From contig CAJGDR010000021.1 of the NCBI GenBank assembly GCA_904502205.1, positions 1-14,497 on the forward strand: a stretch of DNA of 14,497 nt. The letters are read 5' to 3'. The notes under the pieces are model-generated. The model was not told where the DNA came from and ran no database searches. It saw nothing but the letters and a program-made list of their open reading frames with translations. This document shows positions 2,160 through 14,279 of the stretch, piece by piece. Source of the stretch: an uncultured Bacilli bacterium (GTDB taxonomy: Bacteria > Bacillota_I > Bacilli_A > ML615J-28 > CAG-313). The translations under genes and the position numbers were made by a program. Every line of letters begins with the position of its first letter. Position 1 is the stretch's first letter.

Positions 2160-3926
2160 TTATTGTTGAAACACAATATCGCAAATTTCATTAGCAGCTT
2201 CGCTTGCTAAAGTACCTTTATTAGAGTGTGCAACTACCACTAATGCAGTAGTAAAATCACCACCAAATCCTGAATTAAATCCTTCAATTAATCTGTTCAA
2301 ATCATCAATTTCGTGTTTCCAATTTCTTTCATATAATTGATCATTAGTAAGCGGTTGACCACCATTAATATAATCTTTTAATGTGATTATATTACCATTA
2401 TAATCAAAAGAGATATTAGCGATTTTTTCGTTAATTGTACCTGCAATATCAAAGTATTTTTTTGCAATTTCTGATGTTTGTAATTGACTAACTACAGTAT
2501 CATTTTGAATCGATGCATTAATATTATAATCTCTAATAATAACTAATTCATTACTATAGTCATATCTTGACCAATCATCATTTTCAGCTTGAATACTATC
2601 TATGAAACCATTATTTTCTGGTGTTTTAAGTAGTCCATTTTCCGATAATATTTCAAGAATAATTTCGTTAAAGATATTATCATCAATAGTAACATCTCCA
2701 TCATTTCTAAGATCATTTCCAAAGATATATGACTGTTTCATTTGTTCTAAAACATTAGCCAAATTATATGTTTCATTTTTAATACTAAATCTATTAAAAT
2801 ATATGTTATTCAATTGTTTTATAATTTCTATTAATCTTGTTATTTCTTGGTCCCATTCATCTTTGTTTGAATCATAACCACCGCTTGAATTAATATCATA
2901 TATTTTGTCTAATACATTTATTTCTAAACTAGCTCCATATAAAGCATTATTAATCATCGGCATAAGACTATCTAATGAAACTATTTCTAATTGATTAATC
3001 TTTTTTAGTTTTTCTTGTAAGTCAACTAATTGTTTATTTGTCATTGATTCAAACTCAATGTTAATCAATGATTGCATATCATCATATAACTCAATTACTT
3101 TTAGAATCTGTTCTTGAGCCCATTCAGTATGAGCTTCTTCAGAAAGTTCGTATGCAATTAGTTTTTCACTTTTCCAATTATCAAGCCCCAATTGAGACAT
3201 TGTATTAGATATCATACCTATTAAACTATCTTTAATCAATTGAGATTTTGTAATCTTTTCAACGATATTTTTAGTTTGATCATAATTTTCTTCTTTCATG
3301 ATTAAACTAAACAAATCTGCCTCAGCAATATTTTGATAACCAGCATCTGAAATTAATTTAAATAAATCAACCATTATGCCCTTAATATTATTTATTTCAG
3401 TATCCCAATTTACATTATCATAATTTAATTTCAATCCAATTTGTTCAAGCGTAACATCTATATCAGTAAATTCAACAATTGCTTGAACAATATCAGCTTC
3501 ATTATTTTTAACTGTAGATAAATTAAATACATTTTTAATTAAACTATCAACTACATCATAATTATTTAGAATATTAAATTCACCATTTTCAGAAAACATG
3601 ATTTCATATAAATCATTAAGAATAAAGCCTATTGTTGAAAGATCTTTAGTTAAATCAAGTTTAGTTAAATCTAAAACATGTGCAAGATTTCCTAGTTCTT
3701 CACTATTAGATATAATTGATTCTTGAACTAGATCATTTAAATAAACTAATATTACATCTTTGAAAACACCTGAATTATTTAAAGAAGTTCCAATGTTTTT
3801 TAAAGCTAATGGGAGATTCGGATTTCCTAACATACTTTTTGGATTTTCTAAATCAATATTTACTGTATCAACAAACTCACATAAAGCTCTTAAAATATCT
3901 ACAATATTTTGTTTTTCAACAGACCA
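2160..3926 (-). repeat. Protein-level tandem repeats of about 90 residues, W-x-x-E helices
   Basis: About seven degenerate units in the tail of the 907-residue protein begin with a helix such as WDTEINNIKGIM, WDQEITRLIEII or WKHEIDDLNRLI. The Trp codons (CCA on the plus strand) fall at regular intervals; the first is at 3924-3926. Within units a second helix of the type L-x-D-S-L-x-x-x-I is often seen. The repeat is visible only in translation; the DNA copies have diverged. Confidence 0.6.
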
Positions 3927-4883
3927 ATCAGTTTCAATTAATTTATCGAAATCAATATTTTCCTCTGATGCTTCTAATCGAACAATTTCAATAATACTTG
4001 GAATTGTAACATTTAATAGTTCACTTTCTCTAAATCCAAGTAAGATTGTTTCACTATTTTCTAATATGTTATCAATTATCTTATTCTCATCATCAATATT
4101 ATTCCAAATAATCCCAACTAATAAACTATGATAATCAATTTCATTTTTTAAATTAATTGTTCCGTATGATGTTTTTATTTCAATTAGTTTTCCAGTAAAC
4201 TCAGATTGTAATTTAAATTCATCACCAAAAACTGTTTTTGCAATACTTAAAGCAAAGCCACTTGTTAATTCTTCAAATGAATCATTGTCGCTATTACTCA
4301 TTTCTTCTTTTTGATCAGCTTTATCAAAATCAATTTCTTTAACAACATGATTTGCCATTCCAAGAATACCAAAAACTGGTGCTGTCAAGAAGAACATTAA
4401 TATAACATAAGATGCAAAAGATACTCCTAATGCTATAAATCTAAATCCAATTGTTTTTCCTTTACCAATTGGAATAATAACTCTAAGTAGTAACTTTAAT
4501 AAAGGTTTAACTATAATTAAACCAACAATTAAAAGCAATAAATATGCAGGTAAACGCATAATACCAATTGATGCAGATGTTACAAGTTCTAGTGTTGCTG
4601 GTATTTGATCAGTGGTTACACTTAATTCTTCAACAAACATATCACTTAATAATTTAGATAAAGTCATTGGTGAATCATCACCCGTAATAAAAGATATATC
4701 AAAACCTGCTAATGTTTTTGCGATCATACCACAAAATGAAATAGCTAGAATTATCACTACAAAATTTGCAATTAAATTATTTAAAGATTTTTTAAAACCT
4801 CTTAAAAAACCTAATAGCAAGCTCAAAACAAAAGTAGCTATTAATACAATATTTACAATTATTGAAACTAAACTAAAGTCCAT
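2160..4883 (-). CDS. CvpA-like membrane protein with about 90-residue Trp-helix repeats
   Basis: The protein has 907 residues from the ATG at 4883. An in-frame GTG at 4892 lies inside the AGAGGTGA ribosome binding site, so it is not the start. Membrane segments are at about 5-27, 35-58, 110-137 and 147-175. The first turn GFLRGFKKSL matches the CvpA-type G-x-x-RG motif. Basic loops after helices 1 and 3 and acidic loops after 2 and 4 predict that the tail (176-907) is extracellular. The tail holds Trp-led amphipathic helices of the form W-x-x-E-[IL] at W320, W493, W588, W677, W771 and W855, plus a Trp-less copy at L411. The steps are 91, 82, 95, 89, 94 and 84 residues, so this is a degenerate tandem repeat. 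The upstream paralogue shares the architecture. CvpA proteins are usually about 160-180 residues, so most of this protein is something else. I do not recognise a function; adhesion, wall binding or envelope scaffolding are guesses. Confidence 0.88.
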   Translation of the reverse strand: MDFSLVSIIVNIVLIATFVLSLLLGFLRGFKKSLNNLIANFVVIILAISFCGMIAKTLAGFDISFITGDDSPMTLSKLLSDMFVEELSVTTDQIPATLELVTSASIGIMRLPAYLLLLIVGLIIVKPLLKLLLRVIIPIGKGKTIGFRFIALGVSFASYVILMFFLTAPVFGILGMANHVVKEIDFDKADQKEEMSNSDNDSFEELTSGFALSIAKTVFGDEFKLQSEFTGKLIEIKTSYGTINLKNEIDYHSLLVGIIWNNIDDENKIIDNILENSETILLGFRESELLNVTIPSIIEIVRLEASEENIDFDKLIETDWSVEKQNIVDILRALCEFVDTVNIDLENPKSMLGNPNLPLALKNIGTSLNNSGVFKDVILVYLNDLVQESIISNSEELGNLAHVLDLTKLDLTKDLSTIGFILNDLYEIMFSENGEFNILNNYDVVDSLIKNVFNLSTVKNNEADIVQAIVEFTDIDVTLEQIGLKLNYDNVNWDTEINNIKGIMVDLFKLISDAGYQNIAEADLFSLIMKEENYDQTKNIVEKITKSQLIKDSLIGMISNTMSQLGLDNWKSEKLIAYELSEEAHTEWAQEQILKVIELYDDMQSLINIEFESMTNKQLVDLQEKLKKINQLEIVSLDSLMPMINNALYGASLEINVLDKIYDINSSGGYDSNKDEWDQEITRLIEIIKQLNNIYFNRFSIKNETYNLANVLEQMKQSYIFGNDLRNDGDVTIDDNIFNEIILEILSENGLLKTPENNGFIDSIQAENDDWSRYDYSNELVIIRDYNINASIQNDTVVSQLQTSEIAKKYFDIAGTINEKIANISFDYNGNIITLKDYINGGQPLTNDQLYERNWKHEIDDLNRLIEGFNSGFGGDFTTALVVVAHSNKGTLASEAANEICDIVFQQ

Positions 4884-4889
4884 ATAATT

Positions 4890-4896
4890 CACCTCT
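4890..4896 (-). promoter_or_regulatory. Ribosome binding site that fixes the start of the 907-residue gene
   Basis: The minus strand reads AGAGGTG at 4896-4890, followed six bases later by the ATG at 4883. The alternative GTG start at 4892 is part of this Shine-Dalgarno sequence and has no site of its own, so the ATG is chosen. Confidence 0.7.
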
Positions 4897-4937: not shown

Positions 4938-6179
4938 TTAACTAATAAATTCAGTTATTTGAATTCCAATTTTTTTCAATTTAATTATTGGTTGTTCATA
5001 ACCCCGAAGTAATATTTTTGCGTTTTCAACAGTAGTTTCACCGCTTGCAATACTACCTGCTATAATTAATGAAAAAGCCATTCTTAAATCTTTTGCTCTT
5101 ACGTTTGATCCAATTAAAGAAGATTTATTTATAATTATTGAATTATTCATTTGTTGAATTTTTGCTTTCATTTTTCTCAACTCTTCAACGTGACTTATTC
5201 GATCTGGGTAAATATAATCTTTGACAATTGAACGTTTATTAGCACATAACAATACAGTTGATAATATCGGCTGTAAGTCAGTTGGAAAACTTGGATATTC
5301 ATTGATTTCAAGTTTAATACTCTTAATGTTACCACTTTTAACAATTATGGTTTCATCATGAATATTTACAATACAACCCAAATCCCTAATGACATTTATA
5401 ACACTTTCCATATATTTTATTGGACTATTTTTAATTATTAGATGACTATTAGGAATTGCTGATGCTAACAACATATAACTTCCAGTTTCAATTCTATCAG
5501 ATATAATTTTATAAGATGTTGAATATTTTAAATTACTTGTAAATATATATATTGATTTATTAGTATTTATAATAGTAACACCAATCTTTTTTAAAAACTT
5601 AATGGTTTCTAAAACTTCTGGTTCAACTGAAACATTAACAAGATTAATTGGATGATTAGAGTTAGTACAAGCAATAAGTGTATTAATAGTTGTTCCAACT
5701 GATTTTTTTGTAAAACATATTTTGTTTTTCGAATCTTTTTCTTTCTTTATATATAAAGTATCATTATATTCATCAATAACATATCCTAAATCTTCAAATG
5801 CTTTTATGTGCATATTAATTGGTCTATCACTAAAATTACATCCGCCTGGCAATCTGATCGAGCACACATTATATCTTGCAAGGCATGCTCCTATTAAATA
5901 ATATGATGCTCTAAATTTTGTAACATCAATTGATTCAATAATTGGATTAAAAGACTTAGCTTTAATAATTAGTTTATGTTTTTCTCTTTTTACATAAACA
6001 CCCATACTTTTTATGATGTCAATCATTAATAAAACATCAGTTATTAAAGGTATGTTTTTTAATATTATTTTCTTTTTAGTAATTAAACAAGCAGCAATAA
6101 TTGGTAGTGCTGTATTTTTACTTCCACTAATATTTACTACCCCAGATAGTTTCTCACACTTAGTAATTTTTAATCTCAT
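4938..6179 (-). CDS. murA: UDP-N-acetylglucosamine 1-carboxyvinyltransferase
   Basis: MurA transfers the enolpyruvyl group of phosphoenolpyruvate to UDP-GlcNAc, the first committed step of peptidoglycan synthesis, in the cytoplasm. The 413 residues are close to the usual length (about 420). Key residues align by eye with E. coli MurA: K21-N22 in GSKNTALPI, catalytic Cys114 in RLPGGCNFSDRP (E. coli Cys115), R119, the YPSFPTDLQ loop with D301 (E. coli D305), R366 in DLRMAF, and R392 in LLRGYE (E. coli R397). DRIETGSYM (about 228-236) is also typical. The ATG at 6179 follows AAGGAG (6186-6191) at six bases. Several normally invariant positions differ (GAKN to GSKN, LRAS to LRMA), so it is a divergent but apparently complete enzyme. 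The Cys at 114 predicts fosfomycin sensitivity. An EPSP-synthase-fold relative with another substrate is unlikely given the intact Cys loop. Confidence 0.92.
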   Translation of the reverse strand: MRLKITKCEKLSGVVNISGSKNTALPIIAACLITKKKIILKNIPLITDVLLMIDIIKSMGVYVKREKHKLIIKAKSFNPIIESIDVTKFRASYYLIGACLARYNVCSIRLPGGCNFSDRPINMHIKAFEDLGYVIDEYNDTLYIKKEKDSKNKICFTKKSVGTTINTLIACTNSNHPINLVNVSVEPEVLETIKFLKKIGVTIINTNKSIYIFTSNLKYSTSYKIISDRIETGSYMLLASAIPNSHLIIKNSPIKYMESVINVIRDLGCIVNIHDETIIVKSGNIKSIKLEINEYPSFPTDLQPILSTVLLCANKRSIVKDYIYPDRISHVEELRKMKAKIQQMNNSIIINKSSLIGSNVRAKDLRMAFSLIIAGSIASGETTVENAKILLRGYEQPIIKLKKIGIQITEFIS

Positions 6180-6206
6180 GAAAGACTCCTTTTAATTTGA
6201 TATATC

Positions 6207-6235
6207 ATTATATTGCATTTTTTTGTTTTTTATGC
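6207..6235 (-). promoter_or_regulatory. Probable murA promoter
   Basis: The minus strand has an exact TATAAT at 6207-6212, 27 bases upstream of the murA start. The -35 position at 17-base spacing (6230-6235, GCATAA) is poor. The -10 abuts the -35 of the divergent promoter, so the two promoters overlap almost entirely. Confidence 0.45.
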
Positions 6236-6241
6236 TATGAT
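6213..6241 (+). promoter_or_regulatory. Promoter of the aspartase-like gene (extended -10)
   Basis: TTGCAT (6213-6218), a 17-base spacer and TATGAT (6236-6241) are present, with a TG one base before the -10 box making an extended -10. The predicted transcript starts about 25 bases before the GTG start codon. It occupies the same DNA as the opposing murA promoter, so polymerases should interfere. Confidence 0.6.
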
Positions 6242-6260
6242 ATTGTTGTATTCTTGAAAG

Positions 6261-6268
6261 AAGGTGAT
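6261..6268 (+). promoter_or_regulatory. Ribosome binding site that fixes the GTG start of the aspartase-like gene
   Basis: AAGGTGAT sits seven bases (from the AAGG core) before the GTG at 6272. The frame is open further upstream to an ATG at 6197, but that ATG lies upstream of the promoter -10, and the extra residues do not resemble the family. Confidence 0.65.
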
Positions 6269-6271
6269 AAT

Positions 6272-7402
6272 GTGCGATACAGAATCGAACATGATGCTTT
6301 AGGAGATAAACAAATTTCGGCTGAAGCATACTATGGAATACACACACTTCGTGGTAAAGAAAACTTCGAATTAACAAAACGTGGTCTTAATAGACAAATG
6401 ATAAAAGCCCTTGCTACTATCAAAAAATCCGCAGCACGCGCAAATGCAGATTTAGATTTATTACCTGAAGAATATGCTAAAGTTATTGGATTAAGTAGTG
6501 ATGAAATTTTAAATGGTCGTTTACACGGTCAATTCATTACTGATTTTATTCAGGGCGATAGTGGTTCAAGTATGAATATGAATGCAAATGAAGTTATCGC
6601 AAATCGTGCAAACGAAATGCTTGGTAGTAAAAAAGGATTATATGATCAAATTGATCCAATCAAACATGTCAATTTAGGCCAATCAGCATATGACGTCATT
6701 CCAACTGCAGGGAAGATTGCTTTAACTAGACAAACAAAAAAACTAATCGTTGAAATTAAGAAACTTGTAAATACTTTTACTGCTAAATCAAATCTATGTA
6801 AAAATGATTTAATTCAAAATGAAACATTAAGACAAACTTTTGATGCTTTTAGTTTAGTTTTAAATCGTGATATGAAGAGAATGGATTCAGCACTTGAAAG
6901 TCTTCTTGATTTGAATGTTGGTGTAAGTTTAGTTGGTGATCATTCTAAGTTCATTAAAAAGTTAGTTGCTTATATTTCTAAATTTACTGGTGAACCTTTT
7001 AGACCAGCTAAGAATTATATTGATTCTACAATCAACCTAGATTGTTTTTTACAATTAAGTTCTGCTCTTAAAACACTTGCTGTTGACTTATTAAAAATTT
7101 CTAACGATTTAAGATTTATTGGTGGTAACAATTATGGAGATATTAGTCTTCCACTTGTGCAAGAACTAATTACTAAAAAATCTGAAGTTGTAAATTCTAC
7201 TATTTTAGAAGCAGTTAACCAAGTATGTTTTTATGCTATCGGTTTAGATGCAACTATCACACATGCTATCGAACTTACTCAACTTGAAACAAACGAAAAT
7301 TTACCTATTATATTATATAGCTTATTTGAATCAATTAATACACTTCGTCGTGTAATTAGAACTTTTAGAGAAAAAGCTATTGAAGATATTATTATTAAAT
7401 AA
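6272..7402 (+). CDS. Aspartase/fumarase-superfamily protein lacking catalytic residues (probable pseudoenzyme)
   Basis: The 376 residues start at the GTG at 6272. The N-terminus (RYRIEHDALGDKQI, AEAYYGIHTLR) and GSSMNMNANEV (about 98-108) match aspartate ammonia-lyase closely, as does EAVNQVCFYAIG (about 313-324). The active-site parts are gone. The signature GSSIMPAKVNP of E. coli AspA is replaced, in a gap-free alignment, by LITKKSEVVNS (299-309), losing the catalytic Ser and the Lys. CQSTND is GQSAYD (136-141). The GRTQLQDAVP segment is deleted (DLIQNETLRQTF, about 180-191). The C-terminal domain, roughly 75-80 residues, is absent (E. coli AspA has 478 residues). The frame is intact with its own promoter, ribosome binding site and terminator, so a maintained non-enzymatic role is more likely than recent decay. 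Fold assignment is firm; the loss of activity is inferred by eye alignment. Not adenylosuccinate lyase by its N-terminus. Confidence 0.85.
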   Translation: MRYRIEHDALGDKQISAEAYYGIHTLRGKENFELTKRGLNRQMIKALATIKKSAARANADLDLLPEEYAKVIGLSSDEILNGRLHGQFITDFIQGDSGSSMNMNANEVIANRANEMLGSKKGLYDQIDPIKHVNLGQSAYDVIPTAGKIALTRQTKKLIVEIKKLVNTFTAKSNLCKNDLIQNETLRQTFDAFSLVLNRDMKRMDSALESLLDLNVGVSLVGDHSKFIKKLVAYISKFTGEPFRPAKNYIDSTINLDCFLQLSSALKTLAVDLLKISNDLRFIGGNNYGDISLPLVQELITKKSEVVNSTILEAVNQVCFYAIGLDATITHAIELTQLETNENLPIILYSLFESINTLRRVIRTFREKAIEDIIIK

Positions 7403-7405
7403 AAT

Positions 7406-7436
7406 AAAACCGTTCATTAATAAAATGAACGGTTTT
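7406..7436. terminator. Bidirectional intrinsic terminator between convergent genes
   Basis: AAAACCGTTCATT (7406-7418) pairs perfectly with 7424-7436 around a five-base loop, with T runs following on both strands. It begins just past the aspartase-like stop codon and ends six bases before the ATPase stop at 7442, so it serves both genes. Confidence 0.85.
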
Positions 7437-7441
7437 TTATT

Positions 7442-10057
7442 TTACTTCTTATTTGTTAATTTTACTATTAACTTACCAAGTTCAACAAAAACAATTGTTG
7501 AAGCAGCAAGACCTAAACAAATCATTAAATATTTAGGTTCTAATGCTACTAGTTGGAAAACATTAGCAACTGGTGTAATATAACATACTAATAATTGAAC
7601 AGCCATTAATGCAACAAACGATATTATTAACCATTTGTTATTAAATAATTTTCTATTTAAAATTGATTTATTAGACTTCATATTGAAAGCATGGAATAAT
7701 TGTGAAGAAGCTAAAGTCATAAATGCCATAGTGTGACCTAAGTCTGAATTTGGATTTGCAAAATGTCCAATAGCATAAGCCGCAAATGTTAATAAACCAA
7801 TCATAACACCTTCAAGGAAAATTACAATACCAATTTTATGAGCAAAGAATCCTTCAGTTTTTGGTCTTGGTGATTCATTCATTACTTCATCATCAGTCGC
7901 TTCACAACCAAGTGCAAATGATGGGAATGTATCAGTAACTAAGTTTACCATTAATAAATGAATTGGTAAAAGTGGATCACCAAAATCAATTCCAATAAAT
8001 AATGCTGAAATAAGTGATGCTAAGAAAATTGCTAAAACTTCACCAATATTACTTGATAATAAATACATAACAACTTTCTTAATGTTTGCATAAATTCCGC
8101 GCCCTTGTTTGATTGCTTCAACAATAGTTCCGAAGTTATCATCAACTAACACTAAATCAGCTGCTTCTTTAGCAACATCAGTTCCTGTAATACCCATAGC
8201 ACAACCAATATCTGCTTTTTTTAAAGCAGGTGAATCATTTACACCATCACCAGTCATTGAAACAATATGACCTTTCTTTTGCCATGTTTCAACAATTCTT
8301 ACTTTATCCTCAGGTGCTACACGAGCATAAACAGAATACTTTTCAATATTATCAAACAATTCTTCATCAGTCATCTTTTGTAATTCACTAGATGCAATAG
8401 CCAAATCACCATCTCTTAAAATTCCAAGTTGTTTAGCAATTGCTTCTGCCGTTTTTACATGGTCACCAGTAATCATAATTGTTCTAATGCCTGCTTTAGA
8501 TGCTAATCTAATTGACTCTTTTACTTCCGGTCTTGCTGGGTCAATCATTCCGACAAGTCCAACAAACGTTAAATCATTTTCAATATTTTCTGATGTAAGT
8601 TCTGGAAGTGTATCAAAAATTCGATAACCAATACCTAATACTCTTAAAGCATCGCTGGCCATTTCTTCATTCGCAAGTAATGCTCTTTTTTCATCAGGTT
8701 TATATGATGACTTTTCAAGAATAATATCTGGAGCACCTTTTGTGATTGATAAGAATTTACCATTATATTTATAGATTACTGACATCATCTTACGATCAGA
8801 ATCAAATGGTAAATCAGCAAAACGATCATTAATATTTATCATTTTATTTTTAACATATTTTTGACAAGCAACAACTAAAGCAATTTCAGTAGGGTCACCA
8901 ATTTCTTTTAACTCACCATCAACTACTTCACTTTTAGCATCACTACATAAACTAAAATATTCAATCATTGCTTGTTCTTTATCATTTAATTTATCTTCAA
9001 TATTTTTCAAATTATTATTATGATAATACTTAACAACTGTCATTTTATTTTGTGTTAATGTTCCAGTTTTATCACTACAAATAATTGATGCACATCCTAA
9101 AGTTTCAACTGCAGGAAGTTTCTTAACGATAGCTTGTCTTTTGGCCATCTTGTCAACGCCGATTGCAAGTACAACTGTAACAACAGTAGCTAAACCTTCT
9201 GGAATCGCAGCAACTGTTAATGCAATTGCTGTCATGAAAGCACTAGTAATACCTTCTTTTGTAATTGACTTTAATGCAAATAGTTCCATTGCAAATACAA
9301 TAACACAAACAAAAATACAAATAATACCAATTGTTTTACCAATTTGATCAAGTTTATGTTGAAGTGGTGTTTGAGTGTTTTCTTCATTCATTAACATTCC
9401 AGCAATTTTACCAATTTCTGTATTCATACCAGTACCTGTAACAACTGCTTTTGCTCTACCATATGTAACATAAGTTGATGAGAATAAACAATTAGTCATA
9501 TCTCCAATTGCAACATCTTCTTTATCAATATGTTGATTGTTTTTATTTACTGGAACTGATTCTCCAGTTAAAGCTGATTCATCAACAACTAAATTTGCAG
9601 ACTCAATAATCATCGCATCAGCAGGAACAAAGTCACCTGCTTCTACTAATAAAATATCACCAGGTACAATTTCACTAGAATTAATTTTAATACTTACTCC
9701 ATCTCGAATTACTTTAGCATTTGGTGTACTTAATTTCTTCAATGCTTCTAGTGATTTTTCAGCTTTACTTTCTTGTGCAACACCTAAGATTGCATTTATT
9801 AAAACAACGATTAAAATAATTAAACTTTCGATCCATTCTTCATGGTCAGCTATTACTGAAACAACAGCTGCAATTAATAAAATAATAACCATAAAGTCTT
9901 TAAACTCTGACAAGAATTTAATAATTAATGGTGTTTTCTTTTTTTCTTGTAAAGCATTAGGTCCAAACTGTGAAGTCTTTTCTTCAACTTGTGTTTTAGT
10001 TAAACCTTCTGTTTCATTTGTTTGTAATTCTTTAATTACTTCTTGATAACTTTTCAT
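7442..10057 (-). CDS. P2A-type cation-transporting ATPase (Ca2+/Mn2+ exporter)
   Basis: The pump couples ATP hydrolysis to export of a divalent cation across the cytoplasmic membrane. The 871 residues begin at the ATG at 10057, seven bases after AAGGAG. They show an N-terminal cation-ATPase domain, TGES of the actuator domain (164-167), the phosphorylated Asp329 in DKTGTLTQNK, KGAP in the nucleotide domain, and TGDGVND with D604 and D608. The ion-site residues of SERCA-type pumps are present: E287 in PEGL (M4), N670 and E673 in SSNIGEV (M5), and N705, T708 and D709 in NLVTD (M6). The M8 glutamate of SERCA site I seems absent (AFNMKSNKS), as in single-site PMR1-like pumps that also carry Mn2+. 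The leader is a yybP-ykoY Mn2+ riboswitch, so Mn2+ export is the best guess, with Ca2+ as the alternative. The gene converges on the aspartase-like gene. Confidence 0.93.
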   Translation of the reverse strand: MKSYQEVIKELQTNETEGLTKTQVEEKTSQFGPNALQEKKKTPLIIKFLSEFKDFMVIILLIAAVVSVIADHEEWIESLIILIVVLINAILGVAQESKAEKSLEALKKLSTPNAKVIRDGVSIKINSSEIVPGDILLVEAGDFVPADAMIIESANLVVDESALTGESVPVNKNNQHIDKEDVAIGDMTNCLFSSTYVTYGRAKAVVTGTGMNTEIGKIAGMLMNEENTQTPLQHKLDQIGKTIGIICIFVCVIVFAMELFALKSITKEGITSAFMTAIALTVAAIPEGLATVVTVVLAIGVDKMAKRQAIVKKLPAVETLGCASIICSDKTGTLTQNKMTVVKYYHNNNLKNIEDKLNDKEQAMIEYFSLCSDAKSEVVDGELKEIGDPTEIALVVACQKYVKNKMININDRFADLPFDSDRKMMSVIYKYNGKFLSITKGAPDIILEKSSYKPDEKRALLANEEMASDALRVLGIGYRIFDTLPELTSENIENDLTFVGLVGMIDPARPEVKESIRLASKAGIRTIMITGDHVKTAEAIAKQLGILRDGDLAIASSELQKMTDEELFDNIEKYSVYARVAPEDKVRIVETWQKKGHIVSMTGDGVNDSPALKKADIGCAMGITGTDVAKEAADLVLVDDNFGTIVEAIKQGRGIYANIKKVVMYLLSSNIGEVLAIFLASLISALFIGIDFGDPLLPIHLLMVNLVTDTFPSFALGCEATDDEVMNESPRPKTEGFFAHKIGIVIFLEGVMIGLLTFAAYAIGHFANPNSDLGHTMAFMTLASSQLFHAFNMKSNKSILNRKLFNNKWLIISFVALMAVQLLVCYITPVANVFQLVALEPKYLMICLGLAASTIVFVELGKLIVKLTNKK

Positions 10058-12281: not shown

Positions 12282-12441
12282 ATATTAAAAAACCTCCCGC
12301 AAATATAATTATAAATATATATCCTGTAATAAATAATATGTTGTCAATGTTTACATTATCTTTAAAAATAATTGTTAATACATACAAACTAAGCCAACCA
12401 AGAAATCCAAGAATCATCATTATATAAGCAATTATTTTCAT
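12244..12441 (-). CDS. Small two-helix membrane protein of unknown function
   Basis: This is a 65-residue protein with two predicted membrane helices (about 3-27 and 36-56) and a basic C-terminus ([10 protein letters not shown]), so the tail is probably cytoplasmic. I do not recognise a family. The start at 12441 is preferred over the ATG at 12447. It is seven bases from AGGAG (12449-12453), whereas 12447 is only one base away. It also forms an ATGA overlap with the stop of the upstream HAAS protein gene, a classic sign of translational coupling. Its 3' end overlaps glyA by 38 bases in another frame. Tight coupling to the HAAS protein suggests a shared complex, but this is inference. Confidence 0.72.
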
Positions 12442-14279
12442 TCCCATGCTCCTAATTGTACTCCTTCATTAACATTAAATATAGCTGATGGAGTAATATT
12501 TAATCTTTCAATTTTTTGTTCATATTTAGAATACAATACTAAATCTTCACTAATTTCTTTACTATTATCAAGAACTATATCTCCTTTTGGATCAAGAACA
12601 ATCATGTCTTTTCCAAAAACAAAATAAAGAAGTGATTTTGAATTGTTTGATTGATAATCTAAATAATCTGTTTTAATATATTTTAAAGTTGTTTCAGATG
12701 CTTGTGTTTTTAATATTAGGGATTCACCCATATATTCATGAATATCACAATATCTTCCATATGCTTCTACATCAAAATTACCATTAATATAACTTAACAT
12801 AACTGTTCCAGTTGTTTGAATCTTACCATTCATTGTTAAATAGTAGCCAGTAAATGTTCCAGAATTCATTCCAACATTTAATTGTTTTGTAGTTGATTCA
12901 TAAAGTGTAACAGATGTTTGATATAATGATTTAATATTTATATTACTACTTGAATGTACTTGTTTTAAATCTAAAGTACAACTTTGTGTTTCAATTATTG
13001 TTTCTACATTTTCCATCTTATTAATAAATACATCACCACTAGAACTTGTTAGAGATAATTTATTTAAAACAGTATTATTAATATTTACTTTTGCAGCTCC
13101 ATTAATATATTTTAAATCATTACATTTGTTGTTTTCTAATAAAACTGACCCAGCTCTTGATTCAATACTTGCGTTATTAAAACTACAATTAGTAATATTA
13201 ATACCACCTTTTTGAATTAACAAATTAAGATCATTGAAAACTGATTCATAAATAATAACATTACCAGAATTTGCAGTTAATGTTAAATCATTTAAAACTA
13301 CATTATCAAATTGAATAATACCACTTTTATTTAAACAAGTTATCGATAATTGTTCAGGTATTGTAATTTCAATATAAGGAACAGGTTCTGAAAATAAACC
13401 GAACATATCAAATTCTTTCAATGTATCTGTTGTAAACTTTAATGTCTTATCGATTTGTTGAATTTTGTTTGTTCTTTCAAATTCACTTGAAACTTTAATT
13501 GATAAATTTGTTCCTTTACTAAATAAGATGTTGGCAGAATCTACATCAAGTAATATTTTGTTGATATCTTTATAAGTAGATAAATCTATTTCTTGAACTA
13601 CTTCTTCTGATTTAACATTCGCAAACGAACGATAAAAATATGTTTTAGTGCAATATCCTATGATCAAAAATACAAATAATATTAATGCTGAAACAGATAA
13701 AACTTTACCAAGAAGTTTTGGTTTTTTTATAAATTTATCAATATAATCCATAATAGAATTATCTAAGAATTTTGGATTTTTATCAAATGGCACTAATACA
13801 TTTTCTAACAACATATTAAATATCATATGAAATAAATCTAATAAAAATATATAAACTAATAACAAGACTAAAATATAAGAAAGAACTAATATTGTATTAA
13901 TTACAATTTCTAATATGCCTTTTAATCTAAACACTAAACTACTAACTCTAATTATACTACCAAAAGTAAACCACGTAAGAACAATAGTTGAACTTACTAA
14001 AAGCAAAATTATAAATGTAGATACAATTGCTTTAAAATTAGCTTTTTGTTTGGATTGCTTTTTCCTTTTTTCCAAATAATCGATCCCTTCACTTGAATAC
14101 AATCCTTCAGCAATCGATTGAGGACTTGGAAGACTTGCAACTATTTTTTCTTCAGATTCTCCAAAATCTATTAAATTGTTTATCTTCTCACGGTAAATAA
14201 TTAATGTTGATTCCCGTTTAGATTTAGGAAGAAATTTCAGTTCTTCTTCTAACTCAATTAAATATTCTATTACGTTCAT
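12438..14279 (-). CDS. HAAS-domain membrane protein with DUF4097-like beta-solenoid
   Basis: This 613-residue protein begins with a HAAS (DUF1700-type) helical domain: YLIELEEELKFLPKSKRES at 6-24, then ESEEKIVASLPSPQSIAEGL (41-60). Membrane segments follow at about 82-110, 119-156 (long, perhaps two helices) and 189-212. From about 225 the chain is beta-rich and probably extracellular. Between about 311 and 501 it shows tandem 19-residue turns, many with an S-G step, as in DUF4097-like adhesin solenoids. HAAS proteins are often encoded next to PadR regulators and affect envelope stress responses. No PadR gene is in this window. The ATG at 14279 follows GAGGT at eight bases. It leads a cluster with the 65-residue protein and glyA. 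The exact role is unknown. Confidence 0.82.
   Translation of the reverse strand: MNVIEYLIELEEELKFLPKSKRESTLIIYREKINNLIDFGESEEKIVASLPSPQSIAEGLYSSEGIDYLEKRKKQSKQKANFKAIVSTFIILLLVSSTIVLTWFTFGSIIRVSSLVFRLKGILEIVINTILVLSYILVLLLVYIFLLDLFHMIFNMLLENVLVPFDKNPKFLDNSIMDYIDKFIKKPKLLGKVLSVSALILFVFLIIGYCTKTYFYRSFANVKSEEVVQEIDLSTYKDINKILLDVDSANILFSKGTNLSIKVSSEFERTNKIQQIDKTLKFTTDTLKEFDMFGLFSEPVPYIEITIPEQLSITCLNKSGIIQFDNVVLNDLTLTANSGNVIIYESVFNDLNLLIQKGGINITNCSFNNASIESRAGSVLLENNKCNDLKYINGAAKVNINNTVLNKLSLTSSSGDVFINKMENVETIIETQSCTLDLKQVHSSSNINIKSLYQTSVTLYESTTKQLNVGMNSGTFTGYYLTMNGKIQTTGTVMLSYINGNFDVEAYGRYCDIHEYMGESLILKTQASETTLKYIKTDYLDYQSNNSKSLLYFVFGKDMIVLDPKGDIVLDNSKEISEDLVLYSKYEQKIERLNITPSAIFNVNEGVQLGAWE
12777..13286 (-). 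repeat. Tandem 19-residue beta-solenoid turns in the HAAS protein
   Basis: Six consecutive units of exactly 19 residues run from 332 to 445, for example LTLTANSGNVIIYESVFND, LNLLIQKGGINITNCSFNN and LSLTSSSGDVFINKMENVE. Units of 20, 19 and 17 residues follow to about 501. Alternating hydrophobic residues, an S-G turn and Asn-rich corners fit one coil of a beta-helix per repeat. The repeats are visible in the protein only. Confidence 0.65.

Follow-up and report, generated by a model that had tools for sequence, protein, structure and literature searches.

The stretch of DNA considered here, referred to as the window, comprises 14,497 nucleotides from an uncultured Bacilli bacterium (contig CAJGDR010000021.1) and carries a gene for a homologue of aspartase (aspartate ammonia-lyase) that has lost its catalytic residues. 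This pseudo-aspartase gene was first described from the sequence alone (the original prediction) as an intact, regulated gene, and its frame is indeed open and free of frameshifts from a GTG at 6272 to a TAA at 7402 (376 codons). An automatic list of open reading frames begins the frame at a TTG at 6197, and most relatives begin at the equivalent of MRYRIE. As for the expression signals proposed for it, the terminator was recovered by a stem search as one stem read on both strands (2 matches, against a shuffle mean of 0.3) and the ribosome-binding site, AAGGTGA, was seen by eye, but no promoter was found upstream of the gene; none of the five promoter-like sites in 6100-7500 (8.4 expected) lies there. 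The label “regulated” is unsupported.

The protein clearly belongs to the fumarase/aspartase superfamily. It exceeds the gathering score of Pfam Lyase_1 (PF00206; 130.4 versus 27 bits), its predicted structure is the helical bundle of that superfamily, and the closest solved structures are aspartases. The NCBIfam aspartase models cover it almost entirely, yet it scores below their cut-offs (351.8 of 510 and 313.6 of 681.2 bits), and it also misses the curated cut-off of the class II fumarase fumC (242.1 of 664.75 bits). The C-terminal fumarase-type domain (PF10415), which the listed full-length relatives carry, was not found in a Pfam profile search down to E of 1.

The losses were mapped by comparison with the aspartase AspB (PDB 1j3u) and 56 relatives. 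Aligned with solved aspartases, the first half of the protein is almost canonical, and the aspartase-type blocks AEAYYGIHTLR, GSSMNMNANEV and AVNQVCF are all present. The available text of PMC11744663 places the catalytic Ser318 of AspB on the Ser loop and assigns Thr187, Met321, Lys324 and Asn326 to the α-carboxylate pocket, with His188 and Asn142 as further members. In the window protein, Ile stands in the place of Ser318, Val in that of Lys324 and Tyr in that of Asn142; the loop with Thr187 and His188 is deleted; and the chain stops at the start of the would-be C-terminal domain. The destroyed active-site blocks and missing domain of the original prediction are thus borne out, and the protein is an enzyme homologue without catalytic residues. 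The confidence of the model (predicted local distance difference test, pLDDT) is lowest in block 301-310 (mean 62), which overlaps the replacement loop LITKKSEVVNS. Short forms of this kind are very probably devoid of aspartase activity.

The window protein is not alone. A protein search found at least 20 relatives (P0003-P0022) of 376-389 amino acids at 81-90% identity, which share its losses in the parts of the alignment inspected; the six checked by table match at every block. More short relatives occur at 53-61% identity, alongside full-length proteins with the C-terminal domain. In the order of genome G004, of which 43 genomes were counted (the genome of the window is not among them, so that its copy number lies outside these counts), 38 have a match to an aspartase homologue. 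It is single in 37, and in G036 it consists of two fragments on separate contigs. Twelve genomes have the full set of eight tested catalytic residues, eight carry a full-length form with at least one of them changed, 15 a complete short form (363-378 amino acids), and three only fragments. The full-length forms of G005, G006, G007, G019 and G037 have one tested residue changed each and, judged by their sequences, may well be active; Lys324 and Asn326 are both missing from those of G004, G008 and G038. Since the rule for “intact” leaves Thr101 and Ser319 free to vary, the enzymes of G010 and G023, with Ala at Ser319, are possibly impaired too. Full-length members often have an altered Asn142, which is retained in 32 of 77 proteins of one group. 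One of them, P0090 (STSD), represents 492 contigs.

No second aspartase match was found in any of the 15 genomes with a complete short form or the eight with a changed full-length form, and elsewhere in the class the same query does pick up second copies, at 30-35% identity. The other Lyase_1 genes of the order, unreported by the aspartase query, are mostly frames of about 430-480 amino acids and presumably encode PurB; G034, which has no aspartase match, carries an additional Lyase_1 frame of 304 amino acids. Class-wide, 72 of 395 genomes have a match to the query, and no frame below 400 amino acids covering the whole query was seen outside the order (partial matches, such as those in G074 and G326, being excluded). 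In G067 (locus L152), also outside the order, an aspartase-like gene is split across two frames.

The short form arose more than once. On a tree of 57 rows, built with the active-site columns removed, the short state requires four changes, of which well-supported branches force three. Forcing all 28 short rows together was rejected by the approximately unbiased (AU) test (p 0.0008), which rules out one truncation followed by descent for these rows jointly; holding together the 13 short rows on the window's side (without P0053) was not rejected (p 0.246). The rejection supports at least two independent truncations; a third or fourth origin is no more than suggested. The separate short lineages lost the same loop, and their chains stop near one and the same helix end, differing by a few residues, with some of them adding a short tail; several deep short lineages keep open frames. 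The sole aspartase gene has been converted in place, and one order still shows forms ranging from intact to stripped.

Changed members are also maintained by selection, as seen in three pairs of relatives of the window gene. The ratio of non-synonymous to synonymous change (dN/dS; Nei-Gojobori, own script) was 0.124 for the short pair G029/G028, 0.049 for the short pair G032/G033 (dS about 2) and 0.039 for the changed full-length pair G008/G038, alongside 0.014-0.077 in four intact pairs and 0.118 in the mixed pair G019/G017. In three more short pairs, synonymous sites were saturated. Domain 1 had the lowest non-synonymous change in all five changed pairs compared by region; two of three intact pairs were roughly even, and the third, G014/G013, was also lowest in domain 1.

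What has been kept is not the active site. An alignment of 51 family proteins has 58 near-invariant positions (the same residue in at least 50 of them), and at 19 of these the residue is shared by less than half of the 66 far outgroup aspartases. Of the 19, ten are also rare in 16 near outgroup proteins (0-5 of 16): R41, Q42, N81, R83, G86, N114, K156, K163, K164 and E241. These order-specific residues, picked together with their cut-offs after the data had been seen, were then followed in further proteins, whose membership in the order was assigned by similarity (of 208 new proteins, one with too short a coverage was left out). Eight of the ten are present in every one of 62 further short forms, found by similarity searches with the window and L010 and including near-copies, with N114 in 58 and E241 in 56. 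The nine catalytic positions are kept in only 4 to 33 of the 62, the counts for the Thr-His positions coming from a fast, gapped alignment; seven of these proteins hold at least five catalytic residues, and some are 397-399 amino acids long, possibly reflecting contig ends or recent breaks. Each order-specific residue occurs in at least 76 of the 77 further full-length proteins that have six to eight catalytic residues, and 79 of 81 outgroup rows hold none to three of the ten. A stricter cut (98% inside, below 30% far outside; 258 family rows, one row having been dropped) leaves 11 residues, six of them Lys or Arg, an excess with a binomial p of 0.001 and a Fisher p of 0.014 against the other 44 invariants. 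The main features are collected in Table 1.

Table 1. Features of the pseudo-aspartase gene and its surroundings in the window
Feature	Position	Strand	Remark
murA, divergent neighbour	4938..6179	-	frequent, not obligatory context
Pseudo-aspartase gene	6272..7402	+	376 amino acids, GTG start, TAA stop; Lyase_1 130.4 bits
R41-Q42, order-specific near-invariant	6392..6397	+	R41 in 258/258 family rows
N81-F88 (NGRLHGQF), includes order-specific N81, R83, G86	6512..6535	+	family alignment
Former Thr101 block GSSMNMNANEV	6563..6595	+	residues 98-108; Thr101 equivalent is Ser99
N114, order-specific near-invariant	6611..6613	+	253/258 family rows
Former STND motif, now SAYD	6683..6694	+	residues 138-141; alignment
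K156-K164, includes order-specific K156, K163, K164	6737..6763	+	on helix 139-175 of model
Deleted GRTHLQ loop (Thr187/His188 of AspB), approximate site	6794..6830	+	gap place alignment-dependent
Former catalytic Ser loop GSSIMPGKVNP, now LITKKSEVVNS	7166..7198	+	residues 299-309; no gap
Two-way intrinsic terminator	7406..7436	.	between pseudo-aspartase gene and convergent ATPase gene

By computation, the set of catalytic residues has gone, the predicted structure retains the fold, the conversion took place on more than one occasion, and purifying selection acts on relatives. These results uphold the earlier description of a pseudoenzyme kept as an intact gene, and the window gene probably encodes a pseudoenzyme that selection maintains and that arose in place from its lineage's only aspartase. 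The non-catalytic constraint common to intact and short members points to a second function older than the loss of catalysis, and an inherited function of this kind is likewise favoured. The ancestral aspartase of the order would already have had a second function besides catalysis, that of a binding scaffold residing in domain 1 and parts of the long helices. After catalysis was no longer needed, the loops of the active site would have been shed together with the C-terminal domain, and the binding surface retained. That basic residues are over-represented among the order-specific invariants hints weakly at an acidic or nucleic-acid partner, a detail that is itself doubtful. The whole proposal, that an ancestral second function with a partly basic surface, probably binding acidic proteins or nucleic acids, outlived catalysis and repeatedly gave the same reduced core and a new bacterial scaffold family, is tentative.

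Several observations weigh against this interpretation. Among the 68 further full-length proteins that have the complete set of nine catalytic residues, only 44 keep Q42, and two of the 81 outgroup rows hold seven of the ten order-specific residues. Three of the 11 strict residues, T90, E161 and R359, are widespread in near relatives outside the order. These near relatives likewise have a net charge near zero (1.5 versus 2), with far relatives at -12. The order-specific residues may be structural or simply inherited. The dN/dS values are drawn from cousins of the window gene and not from its closest orthologues or its own clade. Finally, five of the 43 genomes have no aspartase homologue, which means that the gene can be lost or that the assemblies are incomplete.

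A different enzyme or ligand sensor that exploits the old pocket is the alternative that survives best, although it is unlikely. The replacement loop LITKKSE is almost constant in the window's own clade, and an Asn occupies the Asn326 position in 33 of the 62 further short forms, but much of the loop is deleted in several other short lineages and the former pocket positions have no common replacement. Most carboxylate contacts are gone in the short forms through changes that differ from lineage to lineage, which weakens the ligand sensor considered in the original prediction.

The partnership with a true lyase suggested there is disfavoured. A regulatory subunit forming mixed tetramers with an aspartase of the same cell would need such an enzyme, and the missing second match in all short-form and changed full-length genomes, with a query able to detect distant copies, makes this reading very unlikely.

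Regulation or assistance of MurA and cell-wall synthesis, also raised at the outset, is suggested by the neighbourhood of the gene: murA lies within the retrieved stretch in 22 of 34 loci, all 24 genomes with a murA match (1e-50 or better) keep an aspartase homologue, and the five genomes without the homologue have no such match. However, 14 of the 38 carriers lack murA by this measure and have zero to three Mur-ligase-domain matches each, none better than about 7e-14, and of the 15 short-form loci that could be assessed, the window among them (L131 is truncated at a contig end), seven do not have murA as one of the two nearest upstream genes. Moreover, murA and other neighbours adjoin intact as well as short forms, as in Haloplasma (L009), where murA and a malic enzyme gene lie near an intact aspartase, so that the adjacency is not tied to the pseudoenzyme. 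A role at MurA thus appears highly improbable.

All 12 intact enzymes sit in genomes with murA, a correlation uncorrected for relatedness. Twelve of the 14 murA-less carriers have complete sequences, eight short, four changed full-length (two of these, in G007 and G037, altered at one tested residue only) and none intact. Across the order, the 19 genomes without murA have zero to three Mur-ligase-domain matches each, none better than about 1e-15, and the 24 with murA have three to nine, the best at 1e-32 or better; the order seems to include bacteria both with and without a cell wall.

A gene on its way out, too young to have acquired stop codons, would fit the five genomes without a copy, but it is the least likely alternative and for the family largely refuted by purifying selection in relatives, by several deep short lineages that remain open and by the order-specific residues that are kept.

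The window reads, in order, two large proteins with membrane-like starts, murA, the pseudo-aspartase gene, mscL, glyA and a toastrack protein. The same order is found in G004 and G016, except for a P-type ATPase gene present in the window only, and places the window near these genomes. The tandem large proteins (3-1886 and 2160-4892, reverse strand; the first runs off the window) have no Pfam match at E up to 0.01, and their family is present in 11 of the 34 loci. The toastrack gene (12438-14279, reverse strand; HAAS and DUF4097) is possibly a membrane-signalling gene.

In seven of 34 loci (L001, L009, L010, L122, L128, L130 and L136), the aspartase homologue is directly preceded by a malic-enzyme-like gene, which overlaps it or lies within about 25 bases of it; the name comes from reading the sequence and not from profile searching. 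As an obligate partner the malic-enzyme-like gene was rejected, since a match to it is lacking in 11 of the 43 genomes, every one of which has an aspartase homologue. In G005, G007 and G035, a malic-enzyme relative stands beside a class I fumarase. The latter was also rejected as an explanation: it occurs in 21 of 43 genomes, some of every active-site state, and is missing from others.

Pseudoenzymes often exist beside an active copy, following gene duplication. The nearest precedent, by analogy, is δ1-crystallin, a member of the same superfamily that keeps the fold, with activity retained only in its sister δ2, according to the available text of PMC2779060. It arose by duplication beside an active copy, whereas no second copy was found in the genomes searched here. 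Compared with AspB and AspA (PDB 1j3u, 3r6v and 1jsw), the window protein lacks the Ser loop, TND, the Thr-His loop and the C-terminal domain, and scores under the curated aspartase cut-offs. Chymotrypsin-treated AspB (PDB 3r6y) is a laboratory cut; the truncation in the window is encoded, and the active-site loops are gone as well. The top structural match of the predicted fold (Foldseek, pdb_via) is PDB 9a75, titled an integrative model of EFTS-ASPA, and this title is no more than a hint of possible protein partners for aspartases. Searches of open-licence papers brought up no report on a pseudo-aspartase in bacteria.

Several database entries of 365-376 amino acids named aspartate ammonia-lyase are short forms of the window kind and, going by their sequences, are probably not enzymes, which puts metabolic reconstructions that rely on such names at risk. 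The recurrent, order-wide conversion of the only aspartase goes beyond what was originally predicted for a single gene. Repeated conversion in place is a striking case, in which a family keeps a pseudoenzyme gene under selection. The conversion of a sole gene is also a natural experiment, which asks whether a hidden second function existed before catalysis was lost and names the residues to test.
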